Positions 15,562 through 25,327 of a stretch of 64,000 nucleotides of DNA are shown one piece after another. Within the stretch, counting starts at the first letter, position 1. Every line of letters begins with the position of its first letter. The DNA lies in assembly GCF_039541115.1 (NCBI RefSeq), contig NZ_BAABFP010000005.1:728447-792446 (forward strand). Reading direction: 5' to 3'. The notes under the pieces were generated by a model. It ran no database searches and was not told where the DNA came from. It was given only the letters and a program-made list of their open reading frames with translations. This DNA comes from Angustibacter luteus (GTDB lineage: Bacteria; Actinomycetota; Actinomycetes; Actinomycetales; Angustibacteraceae). The translations under genes were made by a program, and so were the position numbers.

Positions 15562-16515
15562 TCAGCTGACCCGCTCCACCACGTGGCCACGCGCGGCCTG
15601 ACGGGCGAGGTAGGTGTCGCGCTTGTCCTCGAACCGCGCGGCGGCGGCCTCGAGCTGGTCGAGCAGGTCCGCGAGCTCGGTGCGCGCCTGCTCACCCTCG
15701 GCGCTCAGGCCCTCGCGGTCCCACACCTTCCAGGTGCGCAGGACGGGCGCGAGCACCTCGTCCTTGTGGATGCGCAGGTCGTAGATGCCGGCCATGGCGA
15801 TCTGGATGGATCGGCGGCCGAAGTCCTCGATGGTGTGGCCGGGCATCTGGAAGGTGGAGACCACGTCGCGCACCGCCTGGACGGTCTGGTCCGGTGCGAT
15901 CTCGAAGGCCCCCGCCAGCAGGTTGCGGTAGAAGACCATGTGCAGGTTCTCGTCCTGGGCGATGCGCGCCAGCATCTGCTCGCAGTACGGGTCCTGGGTG
16001 TACTTGCCGGTGTTGCGGTGCGAGATGCGGGTGGCCAGCTCCTGGAAGGAGACGTAGGCGACCGAGCGCAGCATCTCGTCGTGGTCCTGCTCGAAGCCCT
16101 GGCCCATGTGGTTCATGCGCTCGCGCTCGAGCTGCTGCGGGTCGACGGCGCGGGTGACCAGCAGGTAGTCGCGCAGGGCGATGCCGTGGCGACCCTCTTC
16201 CGCCGTCCAGCGGTCCACCCAGGTGCCCCAGGCGCCGTCCCGGCCGAAGGTGTCCGAGATCTCGCGGTGGTAGCTCGGCAGGTTGTCCTCGGTGAGCAGG
16301 TTCACGATCAGCGCGGTGCGCGCCGTCGGGCTCATCTTGGATTGCTCCTGGGTCCAGGGCTCGCCCTCGAAGATCCCGTCGTAGTTGCGGCCCTCGCTCC
16401 ACGGCACGTACTCGTGCGGGAACCACTCCTTCGCGGCACCCATGTGCCGCTCGAGCTCGCGCTCCACGACCGGCTCGAGCTCCTGGAGCAGCTGGAGCTG
16501 CGTGAGTTCCTTCAT
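15562..16515 (-). CDS. Acyl-[acyl-carrier-protein] desaturase (soluble di-iron)
   Basis: Introduces a double bond into an acyl-ACP using O2 and a di-iron centre, adjusting membrane or storage lipid unsaturation. The di-iron ligands are recognisable: the EDNLPSYHREI stretch, EEGRHG with the first E-x-x-H pair, and DENLHMVFYRN with the second. Residues at the N-terminus (LLQELEPVVERELERHMGAAKEWFPHEYVPW) are typical of DesA1/DesA2-type actinobacterial proteins. 317 aa from ATG 16515. The -10 TAGGGT (16524-16529) lies 8 nt upstream, giving at most a 1-2 nt leader, and a perfect palindrome at 16538-16559 covers the spacer and -35 region, so transcription is probably controlled by a dimeric regulator. 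The gene is divergent from the ABC-F gene. Confidence 0.93.
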   Translation of the reverse strand: MKELTQLQLLQELEPVVERELERHMGAAKEWFPHEYVPWSEGRNYDGIFEGEPWTQEQSKMSPTARTALIVNLLTEDNLPSYHREISDTFGRDGAWGTWVDRWTAEEGRHGIALRDYLLVTRAVDPQQLERERMNHMGQGFEQDHDEMLRSVAYVSFQELATRISHRNTGKYTQDPYCEQMLARIAQDENLHMVFYRNLLAGAFEIAPDQTVQAVRDVVSTFQMPGHTIEDFGRRSIQIAMAGIYDLRIHKDEVLAPVLRTWKVWDREGLSAEGEQARTELADLLDQLEAAAARFEDKRDTYLARQAARGHVVERVS

Positions 16516-16523
16516 GGGGCACC

Positions 16524-16529
16524 ACCCTA
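16524..16529 (-). promoter_or_regulatory. -10 element of desaturase gene
   Basis: TAGGGT on the minus strand lies 8 nt before ATG 16515. No good -35 is seen; the expected position falls inside the palindromic operator, which fits a regulated promoter. Confidence 0.5.
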
Positions 16530-16537
16530 CGTTGGCG

Positions 16538-16559
16538 TAACCTACGCTTCCGTAGGTTA
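16538..16559. promoter_or_regulatory. Perfect palindromic operator upstream of desaturase
   Basis: Two 9-bp arms, TAACCTACG and CGTAGGTTA, are exact reverse complements separated by CTTC. A degenerate copy overlaps on the desaturase side (CCTACG-TTGG-CGTAA, about 16526-16540), and a further half-site CGTAGGT lies at 16578-16584 on the ABC-F side. The size and symmetry are typical of TetR-family operators; fatty-acid genes in actinomycetes are often controlled this way. The regulator is not encoded next to the site. Confidence 0.75.
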
Positions 16560-16664
16560 GTGTGCCCGCTACCCGGGCGTAGGTCCAGCCCAACGTACTG
16601 CGACGCGCCGCTCGCAGGGGGAATTCACAGGACTCTCACGTGCCGGCTCGGTAGCGTCGCCCCC

Positions 16665-18329
16665 ATGAGCGCCACGATCGTCGCCCGCGACCTCGCCGCC
16701 GGGCACGGTGCCCGAGCGCTGTTCAGCGGCCTGGACCTCGTGGTCGCTCCCGGCGACGTCGTCGGCCTCGTCGGTGCGAACGGCGCGGGCAAGTCCACGC
16801 TGCTCCGGCTCCTGTCCGGCATCGACAAGCCTGAGGACGGCCAGCTCTCGATCAGCCCGCCCGGCGCCCTGCCGGGCTACCTCCCCCAGGAGCTGGACCG
16901 ACGTCCGGGCGAGTCCGTCCGCGACCTCGTGCACCGCCGCACCGGCGTCGCGGACGCCCAGCACCGCCTGCACGTCGCCACGCAGGCGCTCACCGAAGGG
17001 CTCGCCGGCGCGGACGACGAGTACGCCGAGGCACTCGAGGTCTGGTTGCACCTCGGCGGAGCCGACCTGGACGAGCGGGCCGAGCAGGTGGTGTCGGAGA
17101 TCGGCCTCGGGGTCGGCCTGGACGCGCCGACGGCGAGCCTGTCCGGCGGCGAGGCCGCCCGGGCCGGGCTGGCGTGCCTCCTGCTGTCCCGGTACGACGC
17201 GTACCTGCTGGACGAGCCGACCAACGACCTCGACCTGGCCGGCCTGGCTCAGCTCGAGCAGTTCGTCCGCTCGGTGCGCGCGCCCGTCGTCGTGGTCAGC
17301 CACGACCGCGAGTTCCTGTCCCGCACCGTGAACCAGGTGGTCGAGCTGGACCTGGCGCAACAGCAGGTCGGCGTCTACGGCGGCAGCTACGACGACTACC
17401 TGCGCGAGCGCGAGATCGCCCGGCATCACGCGCGCGAGGCCTTCGAGCAGTTCGACCAGACCCGCGGCCGGCTCGCCGACCGGGCGCGGATGCAGCGGGC
17501 CTGGGCCGACAAGGGCACCCGGAACGCGCTGCGCAAGGCGACCGACGGCGACAAGAACGTCATCCACCACAACCGCGAGACCGCGCAGAAGCAGGCCGCG
17601 AAGGCCAAGCAGACGGACCGGTTGATCGAACGGCTGGACGTCGTCGAGGAGCCGCGCAAGGAGTGGGCGCTCCAGCTGGACATCGCGGCGGCCGGGCGAT
17701 CGGGCTCGGTGGTCGCGACCGCGCGCGGCGCCGTCGTCCGCCGCGGCGGCTTCACGCTCGGGCCACTCGACCTGCAGCTGGACTGGGCGGACCGGGTCGT
17801 GGTCACCGGGCCCAACGGGTCGGGCAAGTCCACGCTGCTGGCCCTGCTGCTGGGCCGCCTCATCCCGGACGAGGGAAGCGCGGGCCTGGGCTCTGGCGTC
17901 CTGGTCGGCGAGGTCGACCAGGCGAGGGCGGCCTTCGACGGGCCGGACCTGCTGCTGCACCGGTTCGCGGCGCACGTCCCGGACTGGCCGACCGCCGAGG
18001 TCCGCACCCTGCTGGCCAAGTTCGGTCTCGGCTCCGAGCACGTCCTCCGCGCCTGCGAGACCCTGTCCCCCGGTGAGCGCACCCGGGCCGCGCTGGCCCT
18101 CCTGCAGGCACGCGGAGTGAACCTGCTCGTCCTCGACGAACCCACCAACCACCTCGACCTGCCCGCGATCGAGCAGCTGGAGCAGGCGCTGGACACCTTC
18201 GGCGGGACCGTGCTGCTGGTCACCCACGACCGGCGCATGCTGTCGACCGTGCGCTCCACCCGGCACTGGGCGTTGGACGGCGGGAGGTTCAGCGAGCAGC
18301 CGGCGGGGGCGAATCAGCCGAGGCCGTGA
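16665..18329 (+). CDS. ABC-F family ATP-binding protein
   Basis: A 554-aa soluble protein with two ABC ATPase domains and no membrane part, the ABC-F arrangement of ribosome-associated factors, some of which protect against ribosome-targeting antibiotics. Domain 1 has Walker A GANGAGKST (about residues 39-47) and signature LSGGEAAR; domain 2 has GPNGSGKST (about 385) and LSPGERTR. Both Walker B stretches (YLLDEPTNDLDL, LVLDEPTNHLDL) are intact. Between them lies a charged helical linker (ARMQRAWADKGTRNALRKA), the interdomain arm that in this family reaches towards the peptidyl-transferase centre. ATG 16665 is chosen; TAGCGT ends 7 nt upstream. The 3' end overlaps the convergent selA gene by 41 bp. 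Confidence 0.92.
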   Translation: MSATIVARDLAAGHGARALFSGLDLVVAPGDVVGLVGANGAGKSTLLRLLSGIDKPEDGQLSISPPGALPGYLPQELDRRPGESVRDLVHRRTGVADAQHRLHVATQALTEGLAGADDEYAEALEVWLHLGGADLDERAEQVVSEIGLGVGLDAPTASLSGGEAARAGLACLLLSRYDAYLLDEPTNDLDLAGLAQLEQFVRSVRAPVVVVSHDREFLSRTVNQVVELDLAQQQVGVYGGSYDDYLREREIARHHAREAFEQFDQTRGRLADRARMQRAWADKGTRNALRKATDGDKNVIHHNRETAQKQAAKAKQTDRLIERLDVVEEPRKEWALQLDIAAAGRSGSVVATARGAVVRRGGFTLGPLDLQLDWADRVVVTGPNGSGKSTLLALLLGRLIPDEGSAGLGSGVLVGEVDQARAAFDGPDLLLHRFAAHVPDWPTAEVRTLLAKFGLGSEHVLRACETLSPGERTRAALALLQARGVNLLVLDEPTNHLDLPAIEQLEQALDTFGGTVLLVTHDRRMLSTVRSTRHWALDGGRFSEQPAGANQPRP

Positions 18330-19650
18330 CGAGCGAGCCGAGCGCGCGGATCAGTGCCGCGTCCTGCTCCGGCTGAACGGATCGCAGGTCGAGCAGGAGT
18401 GCGCCGCGCTCGACCCGGCCCACCACGGACGGCGTCCCCTCGCGCAGCGGCCGGGCCCACCGCGACGGAAGCTGCACGGCCCAGCTCGGCAGTGGTTGCT
18501 CCGGCGCGCCGCCGGCCCCGACCGCCCCGGCGGACGGCACCACCACGGGCACCACCGCCGGCTCACACCCGCTGTCCCGCACCGACTGCGCGATGCGTTC
18601 GGCCCGAGCTCGCAGCTCGTCAGCGTCGACCTCCAATGCCCGGACGACGGGAGCCACCGGCCCGCGCAGCGTCGCCTCCAGGGCGGCCAGGGTCAGCTTG
18701 TCGACCCGCAGCGCTCGGGCCAGCGGATGCCGGCGGAGCCGCTCGACGAGCTCGGCGCCGCCCAGCATCAGCCCGGCCTGCGGGCCGCCGAGCAGCTTGT
18801 CACCGCTGCCGGTGACCAGGTCCGCGCCGGCGCGCAGCGCGGTCGCGGCATCGGGCTCGTCCGGCAGCAGCGGGTGCCGGCGCAGCAACCCCGACCCGAG
18901 GTCGGCCACCAGCGGCACCCCCCGCTCGCGCAGCACCGGCGCGAGGTCCGCGACCGGCACGCTGGCGGTGAAGCCACGCACCACGAAGTTCGACGGATGG
19001 ACCTTCAGCACCAGGCCGGTGTCGGCGCCGACGGCGTCCACGTAGTCCGCCAGCGCGGTGCGGTTCGTCGTGCCGACCTCACGCAGTCGCGCGCCCGTCG
19101 ACGCGAGCAGGTCGGGCAGCCGGAACCCGTCGCCAATCTCGACCATCTCGCCCCGCGAGACGACGATCTCGCGCCCCGCGGCCAGCACCGTCGCGGCCAG
19201 CACCAAGGCAGCGGCCCCGTTGTTGACCACGTGCACCCCGCCGGCCTCCGGAACCGCCTGCGCCAGTGCGGCCAGCGCGCCGCGTCCCCGGCGGGCCCGG
19301 GTGCCGGTAGCCCGGTCGAACTCGACGTCCGTCGTCCCGGACGCCGCCACCACCGACGCCACGGCCGCGTCGGACAGCGCCGCCCGACCGAGGTTGGTGT
19401 GCAGCAGCACGCCCGTGGCGTTGATCACCGGCACCATGCCGGAGGCGTTGTGCGGCAACGCCTCCAGCACAGCCGGCACGACCTGTCCGGCGGGCAGCTC
19501 GGCACCGCGGACCCGGCCCAGCGCGGCGACCACCAGCTCCTTGACGATCCGCGGGCCGAGCTCGGCCACCGCCGCCTCGAGCCTGGGGTCCGCGAGCACA
19601 GCATCGGTGCGCGGGACGGAGCGGCGCGGATCCGTTGCGGCGGTGGACAT
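18289..19650 (-). CDS. selA: L-seryl-tRNA(Sec) selenium transferase
   Basis: Converts Ser-tRNA(Sec) to selenocysteinyl-tRNA(Sec) using selenophosphate and PLP. The protein is 453 aa, normal for bacterial SelA. Recognisable segments are the N-terminal helical part (SVPRTDAVLADPRLEAAV), INATGVLLHTNLGRA, the PLP-lysine motif GSGDKLLGGPQAGL, and the region RALRVDKLTLAALEATL. ATG 19650 has TAGGCT ending 6 nt upstream and no Shine-Dalgarno site, so it is probably leaderless. selB and the tRNA(Sec) gene lie about 4-7 kb away in the same orientation, separated by unrelated genes. selD, needed to supply selenophosphate, is not in the window. The 3' end overlaps the convergent ABC-F gene by 41 bp. Confidence 0.95.
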   Translation of the reverse strand: MSTAATDPRRSVPRTDAVLADPRLEAAVAELGPRIVKELVVAALGRVRGAELPAGQVVPAVLEALPHNASGMVPVINATGVLLHTNLGRAALSDAAVASVVAASGTTDVEFDRATGTRARRGRGALAALAQAVPEAGGVHVVNNGAAALVLAATVLAAGREIVVSRGEMVEIGDGFRLPDLLASTGARLREVGTTNRTALADYVDAVGADTGLVLKVHPSNFVVRGFTASVPVADLAPVLRERGVPLVADLGSGLLRRHPLLPDEPDAATALRAGADLVTGSGDKLLGGPQAGLMLGGAELVERLRRHPLARALRVDKLTLAALEATLRGPVAPVVRALEVDADELRARAERIAQSVRDSGCEPAVVPVVVPSAGAVGAGGAPEQPLPSWAVQLPSRWARPLREGTPSVVGRVERGALLLDLRSVQPEQDAALIRALGSLVTASADSPPPAAR

Positions 19651-19659
19651 CCCGGCAGC

Positions 19660-20433
19660 CTACGAGGTCCGGTGCACCTTGTGCGGCGCCGCCTGGGCCA
19701 GCGGCTTGACGACCAGCAGGTCGATGTTCACGTGGGCGGGCCGGGTCACCACGAACGCGATGGTGTCGGCGATGTCGTCCGCCGTCAACGGGTTCGCGAC
19801 GCCCGCGTAGACGGCGTCCGCCTTGGCCTGGTCGCCACCGAAGCGCACCAGCGAGAACTCGTCCGTGGCGACCATGCCGGGCGCCACCTCGCTGACCCGG
19901 ACGGGCCGGCCGTTGAGCTCGAGCCGCAGCGTCTGGGCCAGGGCGGCCTCAGCGTGCTTGGCGGCCGTGTAGCCGCCGCCGTTCTCGTAGACCAGATGGC
20001 CGGCGATGGACCCGGTGACGACCACGTGGCCGCCCGCCCCGGCCTCGAGCGCCGGGAGCAGCGCCTTCACCATGCGCACGGACCCGAGCACGTTCACGTC
20101 GTACATCCGTCGCCAGTCCTCCACGTCCGAGGTCGCGACCTCGTCCATCCCGAACGCGCCACCCGCGTTGTTCACCAGAACAGCCACGTCCGGCAGGTCC
20201 GCGGCCAGCGCTGCCACCGACGCGTCGTCCGTGACGTCCAGGGTGACGGCCCGGACGTGCTCGACCTCGCCGGCCAACGCGTCCAGGCGGTCCCGTCGGC
20301 GGGCCGCGGCGACGACGTCGTACCCTTCGGCCGCCAGTCGTCGGGCCGTGGCGGCACCGATCCCGCTGCTGGCTCCCGTGACGACTGCGACGGGTCGTGG
20401 GTGGGCAGACGTCGGCCCGGCCTCAGGGGTCAT
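19660..20433 (-). CDS. SDR-family NAD(P)-dependent oxidoreductase
   Basis: A 257-aa classical short-chain dehydrogenase. The cofactor site is VVTGASSGIGAATARRL (about residues 14-30). ARRRDRL after the second strand suggests NADP preference. NNAGG is near residue 90, and the active-site YTAAK is near 155. The C-terminal part (PLTADDIADTIAFVVTRPAHVNID) matches the YdfG/serine 3-dehydrogenase subgroup, which oxidises 3-hydroxy acids, though the substrate is not certain. ATG 20433 has TAGGGT ending 6 nt upstream, so it is likely leaderless with its own promoter, although selA follows after only 9 bp and may be cotranscribed. The HesB-like gene lies 33 bp upstream on the same strand. Confidence 0.92.
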   Translation of the reverse strand: MTPEAGPTSAHPRPVAVVTGASSGIGAATARRLAAEGYDVVAAARRRDRLDALAGEVEHVRAVTLDVTDDASVAALAADLPDVAVLVNNAGGAFGMDEVATSDVEDWRRMYDVNVLGSVRMVKALLPALEAGAGGHVVVTGSIAGHLVYENGGGYTAAKHAEAALAQTLRLELNGRPVRVSEVAPGMVATDEFSLVRFGGDQAKADAVYAGVANPLTADDIADTIAFVVTRPAHVNIDLLVVKPLAQAAPHKVHRTS

Positions 20434-20466
20434 GAGGGAACCCTACGGCCGGGCCGACGCGGACGC

Positions 20467-20742
20467 TCAGGTCGCCGGTGCGGCCAGGAAGAACGACACC
20501 TGGCCGTCGTTCACGTTGGCGTCGAGGGTCTGCTCGTCGAGCAGCGCCGAGGCCTGCTGCTCCAGGTACACCTGCACGCCGTCGGCGTCGATGACGTCGT
20601 CACCGGGGACTCCGCCGTCCACGACGCTCAGCTCGAGTCCGTTCTCGCCCGGGGCGAGCCGAAGGCCGGCGTGCTCGGGCGCCTCGGGGGTCTGGGTGAG
20701 GCCGCGCACGACGTCCACTGCCTGATCGGTCAAGGTGAGCAC
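20467..20742 (-). CDS. HesB/IscA-like small protein without cysteines
   Basis: A 91-aa protein of the HesB/IscA (A-type carrier) fold: LTDQAVDVVRGL at the N-terminus, the core GLRLAPGENGLELSVV, and a closing DGQVSFFLA. The family normally binds Fe-S clusters through one internal and two C-terminal cysteines; this protein has none at all, so it cannot use the standard ligands. Such cysteine-free members are seen in actinomycetes and are often labelled Fe-S assembly proteins, a name the sequence does not support. The start is GTG 20742 with AGGAG six or so nt upstream. It is the first of a minus-strand run with the SDR and selA; the neighbourhood does not reveal its role. Confidence 0.8.
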   Translation of the reverse strand: MLTLTDQAVDVVRGLTQTPEAPEHAGLRLAPGENGLELSVVDGGVPGDDVIDADGVQVYLEQQASALLDEQTLDANVNDGQVSFFLAAPAT

Positions 20743-20899
20743 GTTCGCTCCTGTCGATCGGGATCATTCGGTCACGTCCACCTTGCCCACGAAGGGGCGC
20801 CGCGAGTCAAACCGACCTGCCCCGGCCCTGCTCAGTCCCGGGCGTGTCGCGCGGCGCCGCGTGGTTGACTCAACCTCCTCGGGAGAACGGAGGCCTGGC

Positions 20900-22918
20900 G
20901 TGTCCAGGATCTTCGCGAGCCTGATCCAGGGGGACTTCAGTGGCGGCGACCACCGCAACTTCGAAGCCGTGATCTGGACCGGTGACCAGCTGCAGCACTG
21001 GTTCCGGGACAACAGCGAGGGCCATGAGTGGCGGCCCGGCCAGGTAGTCGTGCCGGCTGGCGCGGCCGGGGCCGGTTGCCTGATCCAGTCCGACTTCGCC
21101 GACGGCGACCACGGCAACTTCGAGGTCGTCGTGCCGATGACCAACGGCAACGGAGGGCTCGAGCTCGTCCACTGGTTCCACGTCAACACCGACGTCACCC
21201 TCCCCTGGCAACGCGCCGGCACCATCGCCACCAACGTCGCCGGACCCGGCTGCCTCATCCAGTCCGACTTCGCCGACGGCGACCACGGCAACTTCGAAGT
21301 CGTCGTCCCCGTCAACAACGGCAACGGAGGGCTCGACCTCGTCCACTTCTTCCACGACAACACCGACGTCACCCTCCCCTGGCAACGCGCCGGCACCATC
21401 GCCACCAACGTCGCCGGACCCGGCTGCCTCATCCAGTCCGACTTCGCCGACGGCGACCACGGCAACTTCGAAGTCGTCGTGCCGGTGCCCTGGGGCGACG
21501 GGCAGCAGCTCCGGCACTTCTTCCACGACAACACCGACGTCACCCTGCCCTGGCAACGCGGCCAGTTCGTCACCGACTCCGCGAACGGCTGGGCGAGCCT
21601 GATCAGCAGCGACTACGGCGAGGACCACCGCAACTTCGAGCTCATCGTGGAGGAGCGCGCGCAGAGCGTCATCGGCTACTTCCACCCCAACGAGGACGTC
21701 GGCGCGCCCTGGCTGCGCAACGGCGTGGTGCGGTGGGAGGAGTACCCCGTGAGCATCACGAGCACCCGCCGGATCTGCCAGCTGACCGGCGAGCACGACC
21801 GGACCGGCTGGGACGGCGAGGGCGACCCGCCGTTCGCCCACAACCGCACCGAGTCTGCCTACCGGGTCCGGGGCACCGACCTCGGCGTCTCGTTCCCGCA
21901 CCGCGGCCGCACGTACTTCCTGTTCGGCGACACGCTGCGCAACAACCAGCCCGCGGACTGGGACAACCTCGACCTCGTGGCGTATACCCAGGACACCACC
22001 CCCGAGGACGGCCTCGACCTCGCCTTCTTCTGGGAGCCACCGCGGATCAGCGACGGCATCAGCCAGCGTGGTTTCGAGGTCCCGCTGGACGCGGTCAGTG
22101 CCGGCGACCACCTGTACGCGTTCTTCTCGACCGACCACCGCAGCTACGGCGGCAGTGAGCTCATGGGCCGCTCGGTGATCACCCGGTGTGACGACGACGG
22201 TTTCGCGTTCCGCCTGGTCCGTGAGCTGTCCCGGCACAAGCTCGTCAACGTGTCCGTCCAGCGCGGCCCGCTGGACGCGCGCGCCGCGGACGGCGTGGGG
22301 CTCCCCGCGGGCACCGACGTCCTGTGGATCTGGGGCAGCGGGCGCTACCGGTCGAGTGACGTCTACCTCGCCGTCGTGCCGTTCGCCCAGCTCGAACCCG
22401 GCCCGTTCGACGTGCGCTACTTCGCAGGGACCCGCACGTCCCCTCGCTGGAGCCGGTCCGAGGACGACGCCACGCCCCTGTTCCACGACGGCTCGGTGGG
22501 CGAGCTGTCGGTCCGCTGGCAGCCGGCCCTGCACCGCTACGTCGCGACCTACAACTCGGACAACCTGCGCGGCATCCACCTGCGCAGCGCGCCCGCGCCG
22601 TGGGGGCCCTGGACGACGGCACCGGTCATGCTCTTCGATCCATGGGCACTGGACGACGCGGCGGACCCGTGCTCAGGGCGCGGCCTGGGCCGCTTCATGC
22701 ACCTTCCGTGGACGACCCGGGTGTGCGACCACGTCCAGGACGACATGTTCGGTCACCGGCGCGACGACGAACCCGGCGGTGAGTACGGGCCGTACCAGAT
22801 CGCCGACCTGACCCGGGCTCGCGGCGGCGGCGCCGACATCTACTTCACGCTGTCGTCCTGGAACCCGTACCAGGCGCACCTGATGACCGCGTTCATCGAC
22901 CCGGCGGTGCTGGGCTGA
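20900..22918 (+). CDS. DUF4185-type propeller protein with N-terminal lectin-like repeats
   Basis: A 672-aa protein in two parts. Residues about 5-290 are five tandem repeats of about 57-58 residues; copies 2, 3 and 4 are nearly identical and carry DGDHGNFEVVV, then an L-x-H-F/W-FH segment, then NTDVTLPWQR. Copies 1 and 5 are diverged. The repeats look like blades of a small beta-propeller of the kind found in lectins. Residues about 295-672 resemble DUF4185 (NRTESAYRVRGTDLGVSFPHRGRTYFLFGDT, VPFAQLEPGPFDVRYF, GEYGPYQIADLTR), a propeller-like, possibly glycan-acting domain. There is no signal peptide despite the secreted look of the repeats. GTG 20900 has GGAGG at 20889-20893. It reads alone on the plus strand among minus-strand sel genes. 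Confidence 0.8.
   Translation: MSRIFASLIQGDFSGGDHRNFEAVIWTGDQLQHWFRDNSEGHEWRPGQVVVPAGAAGAGCLIQSDFADGDHGNFEVVVPMTNGNGGLELVHWFHVNTDVTLPWQRAGTIATNVAGPGCLIQSDFADGDHGNFEVVVPVNNGNGGLDLVHFFHDNTDVTLPWQRAGTIATNVAGPGCLIQSDFADGDHGNFEVVVPVPWGDGQQLRHFFHDNTDVTLPWQRGQFVTDSANGWASLISSDYGEDHRNFELIVEERAQSVIGYFHPNEDVGAPWLRNGVVRWEEYPVSITSTRRICQLTGEHDRTGWDGEGDPPFAHNRTESAYRVRGTDLGVSFPHRGRTYFLFGDTLRNNQPADWDNLDLVAYTQDTTPEDGLDLAFFWEPPRISDGISQRGFEVPLDAVSAGDHLYAFFSTDHRSYGGSELMGRSVITRCDDDGFAFRLVRELSRHKLVNVSVQRGPLDARAADGVGLPAGTDVLWIWGSGRYRSSDVYLAVVPFAQLEPGPFDVRYFAGTRTSPRWSRSEDDATPLFHDGSVGELSVRWQPALHRYVATYNSDNLRGIHLRSAPAPWGPWTTAPVMLFDPWALDDAADPCSGRGLGRFMHLPWTTRVCDHVQDDMFGHRRDDEPGGEYGPYQIADLTRARGGGADIYFTLSSWNPYQAHLMTAFIDPAVLG
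21077..21595 (+). repeat. Three 174-bp in-frame tandem repeats
   Basis: Repeat units start at 21077, 21251 and 21425 with a 174-bp (58-codon) period. Bases 21184-21306 are identical to 21358-21480, about 120 bp without a mismatch. This near-identity at synonymous sites points to recent duplication or ongoing gene conversion inside the gene. Confidence 0.85.
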
Positions 22919-22939
22919 GGCCCCACGGCTCGTCGATGG

Positions 22940-23422
22940 TCAGGGCTCGTCGATGACGTGCACGGCGGCCTCCTCGGCCGACGCGCCGGCACCGTCGATG
23001 CCGGCGTCGTAGCCGACCAGGTCCTTCTCGGTGTCCTCGCCGAAGCCCTGGTCGGGGTCGACCAGCCGGCCCGCCCGGCGGTCGCCGACCTCGTCGCCCC
23101 CGTCGAAGCCGTCGTCCAGGTCGTCCACGGCGTCCGGGTCGTCACGGTCCGGGGCGACGTCGGCGAGCGGGTCGTCGAACGCGGCGCTCGGGTCCGGCTC
23201 CTCCTGCGCGATCCGCTGGTCGAGGCTCTCCCCCTGGCGCGCCTCCTCGAACGTCGTCCCGAAGGACTCGACGCCCCGGGGCTTCTCGGGTGGGCTGTAG
23301 CCCTCGTCCAACGGGTCGACCAGCCCGCGATCGTCCAGGCCGTCCTCGGCGCCGGGCTGGTCCTCGTCGTCGACGCTGAACACGCCGCTGCTGTCGATCT
23401 CGCTGTCAGGCACGTCTGTCAT
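22940..23422 (-). CDS. DUF5709 acidic protein
   Basis: A 160-aa, very acidic, low-complexity protein with no signal peptide, membrane helix or cysteine. The conserved parts match DUF5709: DEGYSPPEKPRGVESFGTT, then EARQGESLDQRIAQEEPD, and near the end GRLVDPDQGFGEDTEKDLVGYDAG. The family is confined to actinomycetes and has no known function; most of the chain is likely disordered. ATG 23422 lies 17 bp inside the 3' end of selB, so the two are on one transcript in this window. The overlap looks positional rather than functional, since DUF5709 genes are found in many genomes without sel genes. Confidence 0.82.
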   Translation of the reverse strand: MTDVPDSEIDSSGVFSVDDEDQPGAEDGLDDRGLVDPLDEGYSPPEKPRGVESFGTTFEEARQGESLDQRIAQEEPDPSAAFDDPLADVAPDRDDPDAVDDLDDGFDGGDEVGDRRAGRLVDPDQGFGEDTEKDLVGYDAGIDGAGASAEEAAVHVIDEP

Positions 23423-25214
23423 GACCCGAGCCTGCCACCATCGCGCCCCCGGCGCGCAGGGACCGAAGCCCCTGGACGTCGCGGACGGTCAACCCCAGGG
23501 CGTCCAGGTGTTCCAGCAGCGGCACGGCGACCCGGCGCGAGGTCTGCCAGACGTCCCGGACCGCGCCCACCGCGAACCCGGGTTGCAGGGTGCCCAGCAG
23601 GTCCGCTGCCCGCTGCCGCGCCAGGGGTGTCAGCACGACCCCATGGCCGCAGTCCACGAGCTGGCCGGCCCGAACGGCTGCGGCGACCTCGCGGCGACCC
23701 AGCCCCAGGTCAGCCAGCCGTTCCGCCGACGCCGCCGGCACCGGCTCGCCGGCCCGGTCCAGCTCGGCGACCAGCGCCGTCACCGCCGAGCCCACGTCAC
23801 CTGGCAGGCGCTGCGGGTCGTCGTCCTCGCGCCGCACCCGTCCACCGGCGATCGTCAGCGGTGGCCGGACCAGCTGGGGCAGCACCTGCACCGACGGCAG
23901 GTGCAGCTGCGCGCGCGCCACCTCCAGCGGCAGACCGCGGTCCAGGGGGTGCTGGTCGTCGTGCCGGCCGACCAGGGCGCTCAGCCGCTCGCCGAGCTCG
24001 ACGCCGTACCCGTCGTGCACCAGCCACTCCCCCGGCTCACCGAACTCCCCGACCTGCCGCGCCGGCAGTCCCATCGCCACCAGGTGCGTTCGCGAGACCA
24101 CCCGCCGCCGAGCGAGCTCTTGCGCGACGTCCGGCGCCCCGGTGACCGCGGTCAGGTCCGCGGCCCGGGCGCGCGCCGCCCCGCGACGGCTCAGCGCCGG
24201 CGGATCGACGTCCAGGACCGTGACGCCGCTGAGGACCAGCCCGCGCCCGGGGTCTCGCAGCAGCCCGACGTCGCCCTGGTGCAGCGGCAGGGCGCGCTCG
24301 AGCCTCAGTCGCCACAGGTCGCCGGCCAGGGGGCGCACGTGGGCGGTCACCTGCGCCGATCCCAGGTGGAGCACGGCAGTGGTCGGCGCCCGCTCCGCCA
24401 TCGTGGGGCACCGGACGTCGATGGTGTCGGTGCGCCAGAACGCTTCCGGCACGGTCAAGGCGTCACCCCGGCGCACCTGGTCGCGGGTGATCCCGCGCAG
24501 GTTCACGGCGACCCGGGCGGCGGCCTCGACCGACGCGTGCGACTGCTCGAGGCTCTGCAACCCGCGGACGGTCGCCGTGGTGCCGTCCCCCAGCGCGAGC
24601 CGGTCACCCTTGCGCAGCGTGCCGGCGCCGAGGGTGCCGGTGACCACCGTCCCGGCACCCTTGATCGAGAACGAACGGTCCACCCACAGACGCACCGGCG
24701 CGGTCCGGTCCGGCGGGGGCAGGCTGCGCACGAGAGCCAGCAACGCCGACCGGACGTCGTCCAGCCCCTGCCCGGTCCGCGCACTCGCTGCCACGACCGT
24801 CGCCCCCGCCAACCCGGTGTGCTGCAACCGTTCCCGGACATCCGTGACGACCGGTGCGGGATCGGCGAGGTCGGCGCGCGACACCACCACGAGCCCGTGC
24901 CGAACGCCGAACGCCTCGATGGCCTCCACGTGCTCCTGGGTCTGCGGCATCCACCCCGCGTCGGCCGCGACGACGAGGACGACGGCAGGCACCGGGCCGA
25001 GCCCGGCCAGCATCGTCGGGACGAACCGCTCGTGGCCGGGCACGTCGACGAACGCCAGCGTCTCGCCGTCCAGCGTCGTCCAGACGAAGCCGAGGTCCAG
25101 CGTGAGGCCGCGGCGCTGCTCCTCGGCGTACCGGTCGGGCTCCTGGCCGGTCACGGCGCGGACCAGCGCGGACTTGCCGTGGTCGACGTGTCCTGCGGTG
25201 GCCAGCACGTGCAT
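23406..25214 (-). CDS. selB: Selenocysteine-specific elongation factor
   Basis: A GTPase that delivers selenocysteinyl-tRNA(Sec) to the ribosome at UGA codons marked by a SECIS hairpin. The GTPase domain has G1 GHVDHGKS (residues 8-15), G3 DVPGHERF and a G4-like VVSRADL, where the usual NKxD/TKxD is SRAD. Elongation-factor beta-barrel domains follow (GAGTVVTGTLGAG). The C-terminal third is helical and fits the winged-helix array that binds SECIS RNA (LIDCGHGVVL-type strands, LGLTVRDVQGLRSLRAGG at the end). It is 602 aa from ATG 25214; a GTG one codon earlier is possible. It starts 20 nt after the tRNA(Sec) 3' end and overlaps the DUF5709 gene by 17 bp. Confidence 0.95.
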   Translation of the reverse strand: MHVLATAGHVDHGKSALVRAVTGQEPDRYAEEQRRGLTLDLGFVWTTLDGETLAFVDVPGHERFVPTMLAGLGPVPAVVLVVAADAGWMPQTQEHVEAIEAFGVRHGLVVVSRADLADPAPVVTDVRERLQHTGLAGATVVAASARTGQGLDDVRSALLALVRSLPPPDRTAPVRLWVDRSFSIKGAGTVVTGTLGAGTLRKGDRLALGDGTTATVRGLQSLEQSHASVEAAARVAVNLRGITRDQVRRGDALTVPEAFWRTDTIDVRCPTMAERAPTTAVLHLGSAQVTAHVRPLAGDLWRLRLERALPLHQGDVGLLRDPGRGLVLSGVTVLDVDPPALSRRGAARARAADLTAVTGAPDVAQELARRRVVSRTHLVAMGLPARQVGEFGEPGEWLVHDGYGVELGERLSALVGRHDDQHPLDRGLPLEVARAQLHLPSVQVLPQLVRPPLTIAGGRVRREDDDPQRLPGDVGSAVTALVAELDRAGEPVPAASAERLADLGLGRREVAAAVRAGQLVDCGHGVVLTPLARQRAADLLGTLQPGFAVGAVRDVWQTSRRVAVPLLEHLDALGLTVRDVQGLRSLRAGGAMVAGSGHDRRA

Positions 25215-25234
25215 CACCGCGCCAGCCTAGGTGG

Positions 25235-25327
25235 CGGAGGCGGACGGGAATCGAACCCGCCAGACCGAGGTGCTCGGTCTCGTCGGTGTTGAAGACCGCG
25301 GGGACCACCAGGTACCCAGACGCCTCC
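25235..25327 (-). tRNA. selC: tRNA-Sec (anticodon UCA)
   Basis: On the minus strand a 93-nt tRNA runs from 25327 to 25235, with an encoded CCA at 25234-25232. The acceptor GGAGGCG pairs with CGCCTCC and the discriminator is G. The anticodon loop is CTTCAAC with TCA at the anticodon positions. The long variable arm has a 7-bp stem (GACCGAG/CTCGGTC) closed by CAC. The T loop is TTCGATT. The size, UCA anticodon and long extra arm identify tRNA(Sec). selB follows 20 nt downstream, so the tRNA is probably processed from a shared transcript. Confidence 0.95.

Follow-up and report, generated by a model that had tools for sequence, protein, structure and literature searches.

In Escherichia coli, the TetR-family regulator FabR controls fabA, fabB and trhA (yqfA); its repression of trhA becomes stronger with oleate (PMC9017321, excerpted text). 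As FabR controls these three genes, the co-control of fatty acid unsaturation and of TrhA has a precedent. Among mycobacteria, MadR (Rv0472c) is a TetR that keeps the acyl-ACP desaturases desA1 and desA2 repressed until saturated C16-C24 acyl-CoA releases it (PMC8872791, in part). FasR (Rv3208) is a TetR-family activator of fatty acid synthase that responds to long acyl-CoA (PMC7382501, in part), and QacR illustrates how more than one TetR dimer can occupy a single longer palindromic region, in that case of 28 bp (PMC4482099, in part). Closest to the present case is Rv1019, reported in 2022 to negatively regulate Rv3230c-Rv3229c, the desA3 operon for oleic acid synthesis enzymes, in M. tuberculosis (doi 10.1111/febs.16647, as cited in PMC9861118). 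Rv1019 is also cited as a negative regulator of mfd, with mfd-mazG among its targets, in the passages seen of PMC9579286, and excerpted accounts link it to oleate synthesis and hypoxia.

Here we describe a palindromic element of Angustibacter luteus on which a repressor, with its gene at another place in the genome, very probably docks. We consider it highly likely, from the sequence comparisons below, that a TetR of the Rv1019 type acts in trans on this composite operator, that it represses a desaturase gene and controls trhA, and that it governs a membrane fatty-acid regulon across actinobacteria. The window, i.e., the whole 64,000-nucleotide stretch that was analyzed, contains the following features, the relatives G001 to G003 being introduced below.

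15562-16515, minus strand: acyl-ACP-type (FA_desaturase_2) desaturase gene, presumed target (Pfam FA_desaturase_2, E 1.4e-74)
16523-16544, no strand: second palindrome, putative dimer site 2 (14/18; 15 bp from site 1)
16538-16559, no strand: main palindrome, putative dimer site 1 (exact; unique in the window; 0/100 shuffles; core kept in G001-G003)
16565-16586, no strand: weak third palindrome with CGTAGG (11/18; doubtful; absent from G002 and G003)
16665-18329, plus strand: ABC-F ATPase gene, divergent from the desaturase gene (105 bp from site 1; a neighbor, unsupported as a target)
18289-19650, minus strand: selA (NCBIfam)
23406-25217, minus strand: SelB-like elongation factor gene (named from a look at its translation)
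25232-25327, minus strand: tRNA-Sec

The last three features belong to a selenocysteine cluster (18289-25327) with other ORFs interspersed; a large ORF with near-identical internal repeats (LIQSDFADGDHGNFEVVVP...) lies on the plus strand between selA and the SelB-like gene (20735-22918).

The main palindrome, TAACCTACG-CTTC-CGTAGGTTA, is found at 16538-16559 exactly as the sequence-only reading had described it, as 22 bp with two 9-bp arms, free of any arm mismatch, around a 4-bp spacer. It is the single match in the 64-kb window when up to three mismatches are allowed, and 100 dinucleotide shuffles give no match at all. The overlapping degenerate copy announced by the same reading is also there: the second palindrome, CACCCTACG-TTGG-CGTAACCTA (that is, CACCCTACGTTGGCGTAACCTA), fits at 14 of 18 positions, and its center lies 15 bp from that of the main one, both together making up a 37-bp composite operator (16523-16559). 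Nowhere else in the window does a place score above 12/18. An additional half-site had been proposed toward the ABC-F gene, and this proposal stands in part: CGTAGG is present at 16578, within a weak third palindrome (16565-16586, 11/18) that is partly kept in G001, of the same genus, but is missing from G002 and G003. We regard this third palindrome as doubtful.

As is typical of TetR operators, the main palindrome is an inverted repeat near the beginning of the gene that it presumably controls: it lies upstream of the desaturase with 22 bp between its edge and the ATG. Because the operator ends at this distance from the start codon, it very likely overlaps the desaturase core promoter. The palindrome had been said to cover the -35 box, a claim that we could not uphold, since a sigma-70 consensus scan of 16400-16750 returns no promoter; a terminator scan is likewise empty. 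The element is preserved in relatives. In the desaturase promoters of G001 and of G002 and G003, which belong to other genera of the same family, both palindrome cores are kept while the flanks diverge, the conserved core reading TACGGAA-CGTA...TACGC-AACGTA. The context of the desaturase start codon is also conserved in relatives, and in G001 the operator sits between the same desaturase/ABC-F gene pair.

A genome search with the arms had been suggested as a check, and it brings out a second strong copy. In the 4.16 Mb genome, two sites only are found with up to three mismatches, the one at the window desaturase and one at C7:117292. The latter precedes a hemolysin III/TrhA (PAQR) gene (NCBIfam TrhA, 139 bits for a cut-off of 80), whose divergent partner is a prenyl diphosphate synthase gene. 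This trhA site also has a second palindrome 15 bp off (13/18), and its operator core is kept in the trhA promoters of this genome (G000), G001 and G002. A looser search adds the overlapping window copy and a weaker third site (L003, 1501-1537; G000:C4:110271), which scores 15/18, has a 12/18 partner at 15 bp and lies just upstream of an NYN-domain gene. As the NYN-domain genes of nine other relatives carry no site of 14/18 or more, L003 is not counted as a conserved target.

The absence of the motif from the desaturase or fatty-acid promoters of relatives would have spoken against a TetR-type operator bound by a trans-acting lipid regulator; the motif is, on the contrary, widely present there. 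The pattern TAACYTACGNNNNCGTARGTTA, scanned over GTDB species genomes, gives at least 120 exact sites in at least 119 stretches, and 79 of 80 titles among the matches listed are actinobacterial by name, one being an Acidobacteria MAG. These stretches were annotated by script and the genes starting within 200 bp of a site were clustered, families being assigned by running cluster representatives only. Among the matches listed, the clusters comprise 35 DesA3-like membrane desaturases, 23 TrhA proteins, 15 uppS products (divergent partners), 14 stearoyl-CoA-type desaturases, 9 acyl-ACP desaturases, 8 acyl-CoA ligases and 8 ferredoxin-reductase-like proteins, plus smaller groups and singletons. 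Over a sample of 149 genomes spread evenly across the order of the host, the pattern has 199 matches vs. 6 for its reversed form. The order set covers part of the matches, with 78 sites out of 95 loci (one per genome among the matches listed, and 37 chosen regions), after dropping sites below 16/18 and merging overlapping copies.

A recount based on similarity finds a lipid-related neighbor at 111/120 sites among the matches listed and at 73/78 sites of the order set, the remaining 9 and 5 sites, respectively, having no assigned neighbor. The classes are DesA3-type, stearoyl-CoA-type and acyl-ACP desaturases, reductases, FadD ligases, TrhA and 2-oxoacid dehydrogenase E1-alpha; as their reference proteins were drawn from these same loci, classes with a single member are circular and prove nothing. 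In the order set, the main neighbors are TrhA/uppS (27 sites), 2-oxoacid dehydrogenase E1-alpha (20) and acyl-CoA ligase (13). The motif also occurs in 56/60 genomes of the genus of M. celatum, many of those listed having two sites about 1.2 kb apart, and in ten loci fetched from this genus it stands before the reductase and DesA3 genes.

Two of the neighbor types call for a remark of their own. The operator precedes 2-oxoacid dehydrogenase E1-alpha genes at L022, L252, L267 and L322, the four loci on which the family assignment was run, and NCBIfam names the products of L022 and L252 as pyruvate dehydrogenase E1-alpha. Such sites may reflect control of the precursors of branched-chain fatty acids. 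Nitronate-monooxygenase-like genes come behind the operator at four order sites, L027 (1501-1537) and three that resemble it, a family assignment run on L027 only.

The double form of the operator recurs too. A second palindrome of 13/18 or better is found exactly 15 bp to one side of 87 of the 120 exact sites among the matches listed, and ten other offsets at the exact sites give no partner palindrome. When the flanks are shuffled in 500 rounds, the partner count averages 0.88 and never exceeds 5; this control is fair because the 7 shared positions are kept. The arrangement suggests that two dimers would sit side by side on the DNA, a stoichiometry derived from the site geometry.

The operator had been attributed, on its form and the lack of an adjacent regulator gene, to a TetR-type, trans-acting lipid regulator, and the distribution of regulators supports this attribution and narrows it to one TetR family. 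At the threshold used, the genome contains 26 TetR genes. One of them, L153 (G000:C8:34538-35197), is unlinked to the operator and lies beside glmU. Among the matches listed, all 14 loci with a stearoyl-CoA-type desaturase have an L153-like TetR (63-71% identity) encoded directly downstream on the same strand, and thus the operator is common to the desaturase genes linked to this TetR; none of the other loci among the at least 119 listed has an L153-like TetR. The 14 linked loci include Pseudonocardiaceae, Streptosporangiaceae and one Micrococcales MAG. In the 149 order genomes, TetR and motif are found together in 84, TetR only in 24, motif only in 4 and neither in 37, counting the motif at no more than one mismatch and the TetR at E 1e-50 or better (5 genomes with weaker matches being counted as without). 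The Fisher p-value of 1.7e-14 is overstated because the genomes are related, and the 24 TetR-only and 4 motif-only genomes speak against the pairing; the latter four are 62-93% complete. Matched absences of both TetR and motif are seen inside several families (f3, f4, f5, f17). Furthermore, 19 of 20 motif-bearing genomes picked from the GTDB scan have the TetR, a Thermoleophilaceae MAG being the one without.

In a tree of 27 picked orthologues and the 26 TetRs of the genome, whose bootstrap is not fully settled, L153 and its orthologues lie on one side of a branch with 99/98 support. Of 68 distinct orthologues, 67 cover the helix-turn-helix stretch SKPVVYEHFGGK, which hardly varies: 10 of its 12 residues never change, and at the two Val positions the valine is kept in 63 and 65 of the 67 sequences. 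The nearest solved relative of L153 is FasR (E 1.5e-26). An AlphaFold model of an orthologue, built on a 7-row alignment, was discarded as too poor (mean pLDDT 51).

Each mycobacterial genome searched contains a single match to L153. This match adjoins glmU in two of them, L288 by family annotation and L289 by look, and an Mfd-like gene is found nearby, with a UvrB-interaction domain in L288. This glmU/mfd setting is presumably that of Rv1019, whose gene order we partly assume. By glmU synteny and the single match per mycobacterial genome, the L153 family would then be orthologous to Rv1019. The linkage, the co-occurrence and the published result on this presumed orthologue together support the Rv1019-type TetR as the best candidate regulator. 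The regulator-target pair was thus already in print for M. tuberculosis, and our analysis, led by the operator, arrived at the same regulator.

Autoregulation through the motif was considered and rejected in this genome: the best score is 12/18 over the 26 TetR loci, of 3 kb each, and again 12/18 in the 9.5 kb around L153. No operator of 14/18 or more is found in the TetR region of this genome (L287), in the mycobacterial L288 and L289 or in 30 order TetR loci (L208-L237), and in a further 19 such loci (L268-L286), taken from other genomes, this level is reached by L269 (16) and L271 (14) only. Because the TetR/glmU/mfd regions L287-L289 have no site of 14/18 or more, the reported control of mfd is not explained by this operator, and the mfd-mazG activity, if right, uses other DNA.

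In the mechanism that we infer, as regards binding, repression and ligand, the Rv1019-type TetR encoded beside glmU would bind the operator in trans, probably as two dimers on the 37-bp element, 15 bp center to center and near the start codon. The bound dimers would block transcription of the desaturase gene; the position of the operator, right at the gene start, favors repression. The same TetR would also control trhA in this genome. Elsewhere in actinobacteria its targets would be other desaturases together with the electron donors of these enzymes, as well as FadD ligases and 2-oxoacid dehydrogenase E1-alpha. The regulon would thus set the composition of membrane fatty acids and be the actinobacterial counterpart of that of E. 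coli FabR. Release by long-chain acyl-CoA may be proposed from the kinship to FasR and from the role of FasR and MadR as acyl-CoA sensors.

This same kinship raises the alternative that the regulator is an activator, as FasR is. We consider it unlikely: a protein docked on an operator whose edge is 22 bp from the start codon should stand in the way of RNA polymerase, and the title of the Rv1019 report, as cited in PMC9861118, reads "negatively regulates". Another regulator could also use the operator and merely co-occur with the Rv1019-type TetR. The L153 gene is indeed unlinked to the operator here and has no operator of its own (best 12/18 around the gene), and our survey of regulators covered the TetR family only. 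The 14/14 linkage across Pseudonocardiaceae, Streptosporangiaceae and a Micrococcales MAG, the matched losses and the published link between Rv1019 and desA3 nevertheless make such a regulator distinctly improbable.

Two known acyl-CoA-responsive TetRs fare worse, and we give either of them very little chance of being the protein that binds here. A FasR orthologue would be L154, which is FasR-like at 252 bits, below the cut-off of 330, and FasR is, as said above, the closest solved relative of our candidate. L154 relatives are however found in 41/149 genomes, and 61 of the 88 motif genomes have no FasR-like match. Nine of the 41 are without an Rv1019-type TetR; 8 of these 9 are also without the motif, the ninth being G003, which is 62% complete and has it. 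In addition, the crystal oligonucleotide of FasR, as it appears in the excerpted text, is without this palindrome, though containing a CGTAG. FasR is thus rejected by its distribution.

The same holds for MadR, a TetR that represses the very enzyme class encoded in the window. The genome encodes L152, which we take to be MadR-like, but relatives of L152 are found in 5/149 order genomes vs. 88 for the motif, and the linkage points to another TetR. The MadR consensus TCTGTGxxxxxxxGT, as given in the excerpted text of PMC8872791, is also unlike this operator. Finally, a chance palindrome or a structure with no regulatory role can be set aside as next to impossible, given the absence of matches in 100 shuffles, the footprint in four species and, decisively, the recurrence at lipid genes. 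Three further TetRs were considered and not retained: Rv0158, as a desA3-linked TetR, and SCO3201 of Streptomyces, whose motifs in the excerpted reports are unrelated, and JTY_0672/Rv0653c, another desA3-linked TetR, for which the excerpts give no motif.

The regulation by an Rv1019-type TetR, which we therefore retain as our reading, can be set against the systems described above. With Rv1019 itself it shares, besides the presumed orthology, the type of target, a desaturase and its reductase, and the mycobacterial loci that we retrieved have the motif before DesA3 and reductase genes; our case differs in that the presumed targets here are an acyl-ACP-type desaturase and trhA. Like FabR, it would be a TetR controlling both unsaturated fatty acid enzymes and the PAQR protein TrhA; L153, however, with 34 bits for a FabR cut-off of 151, falls in another TetR subfamily, its presumed targets are aerobic desaturases, and the phylum is different. 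MadR is alike in exerting TetR control of acyl-ACP desaturases but differs by its reported motif and the narrow spread of L152 relatives in the order. FasR is the nearest solved relative of L153 and, if our proposal on the ligand is right, shares acyl-CoA sensing with it; the score of L153, 102 bits for a FasR cut-off of 330, a clade separate from that of the FasR-like L154 and another operator set them apart. As in QacR, more than one dimer would be held by one longer palindromic region, the 28-bp site described in the excerpted source being replaced here by a 37-bp site with a 15-bp offset, at a stoichiometry predicted from the DNA.

In the listed matches and excerpts of the open-licence PMC literature that we searched, we found no description of the operator, of its 15-bp double form, of the wide regulon or of an actinobacterial co-regulation of TrhA, and a search with the motif letters gives only unrelated papers among the matches listed. 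Within that literature, what appears to be new is how the operator is defined, its doubling at 15 bp, its spread over actinobacteria and its link to TrhA. The operator itself, its composite form, its neighboring genes and the linkage and co-occurrence of the TetR can be read directly in the genomes.

We moreover lean, with some reserve, toward a broader proposal, in which one conserved TetR and its 15-bp-offset double operator form a phylum-scale regulon where the fluidity enzyme of each lineage would be controlled together with TrhA. By fluidity enzymes we mean a soluble or membrane desaturase with its reductase, an acyl-CoA ligase, or a 2-oxoacid dehydrogenase, possibly as a supplier for branched-chain fatty acids. 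If this is true, the pairing of unsaturation and PAQR proteins arose, or was kept, under different regulators, FabR in E. coli and a TetR of another kind in actinobacteria. For membrane fatty-acid control in actinobacteria, including mycobacteria, our analysis provides an operator of defined sequence and a candidate regulator that can be named. The operator also precedes a gene for a bacterial relative of the animal adiponectin receptors (PAQR); the PAQR/TrhA proteins, whose role in bacteria is unsettled, would be tied to desaturation in a second phylum, and their function would become testable through the common regulon.
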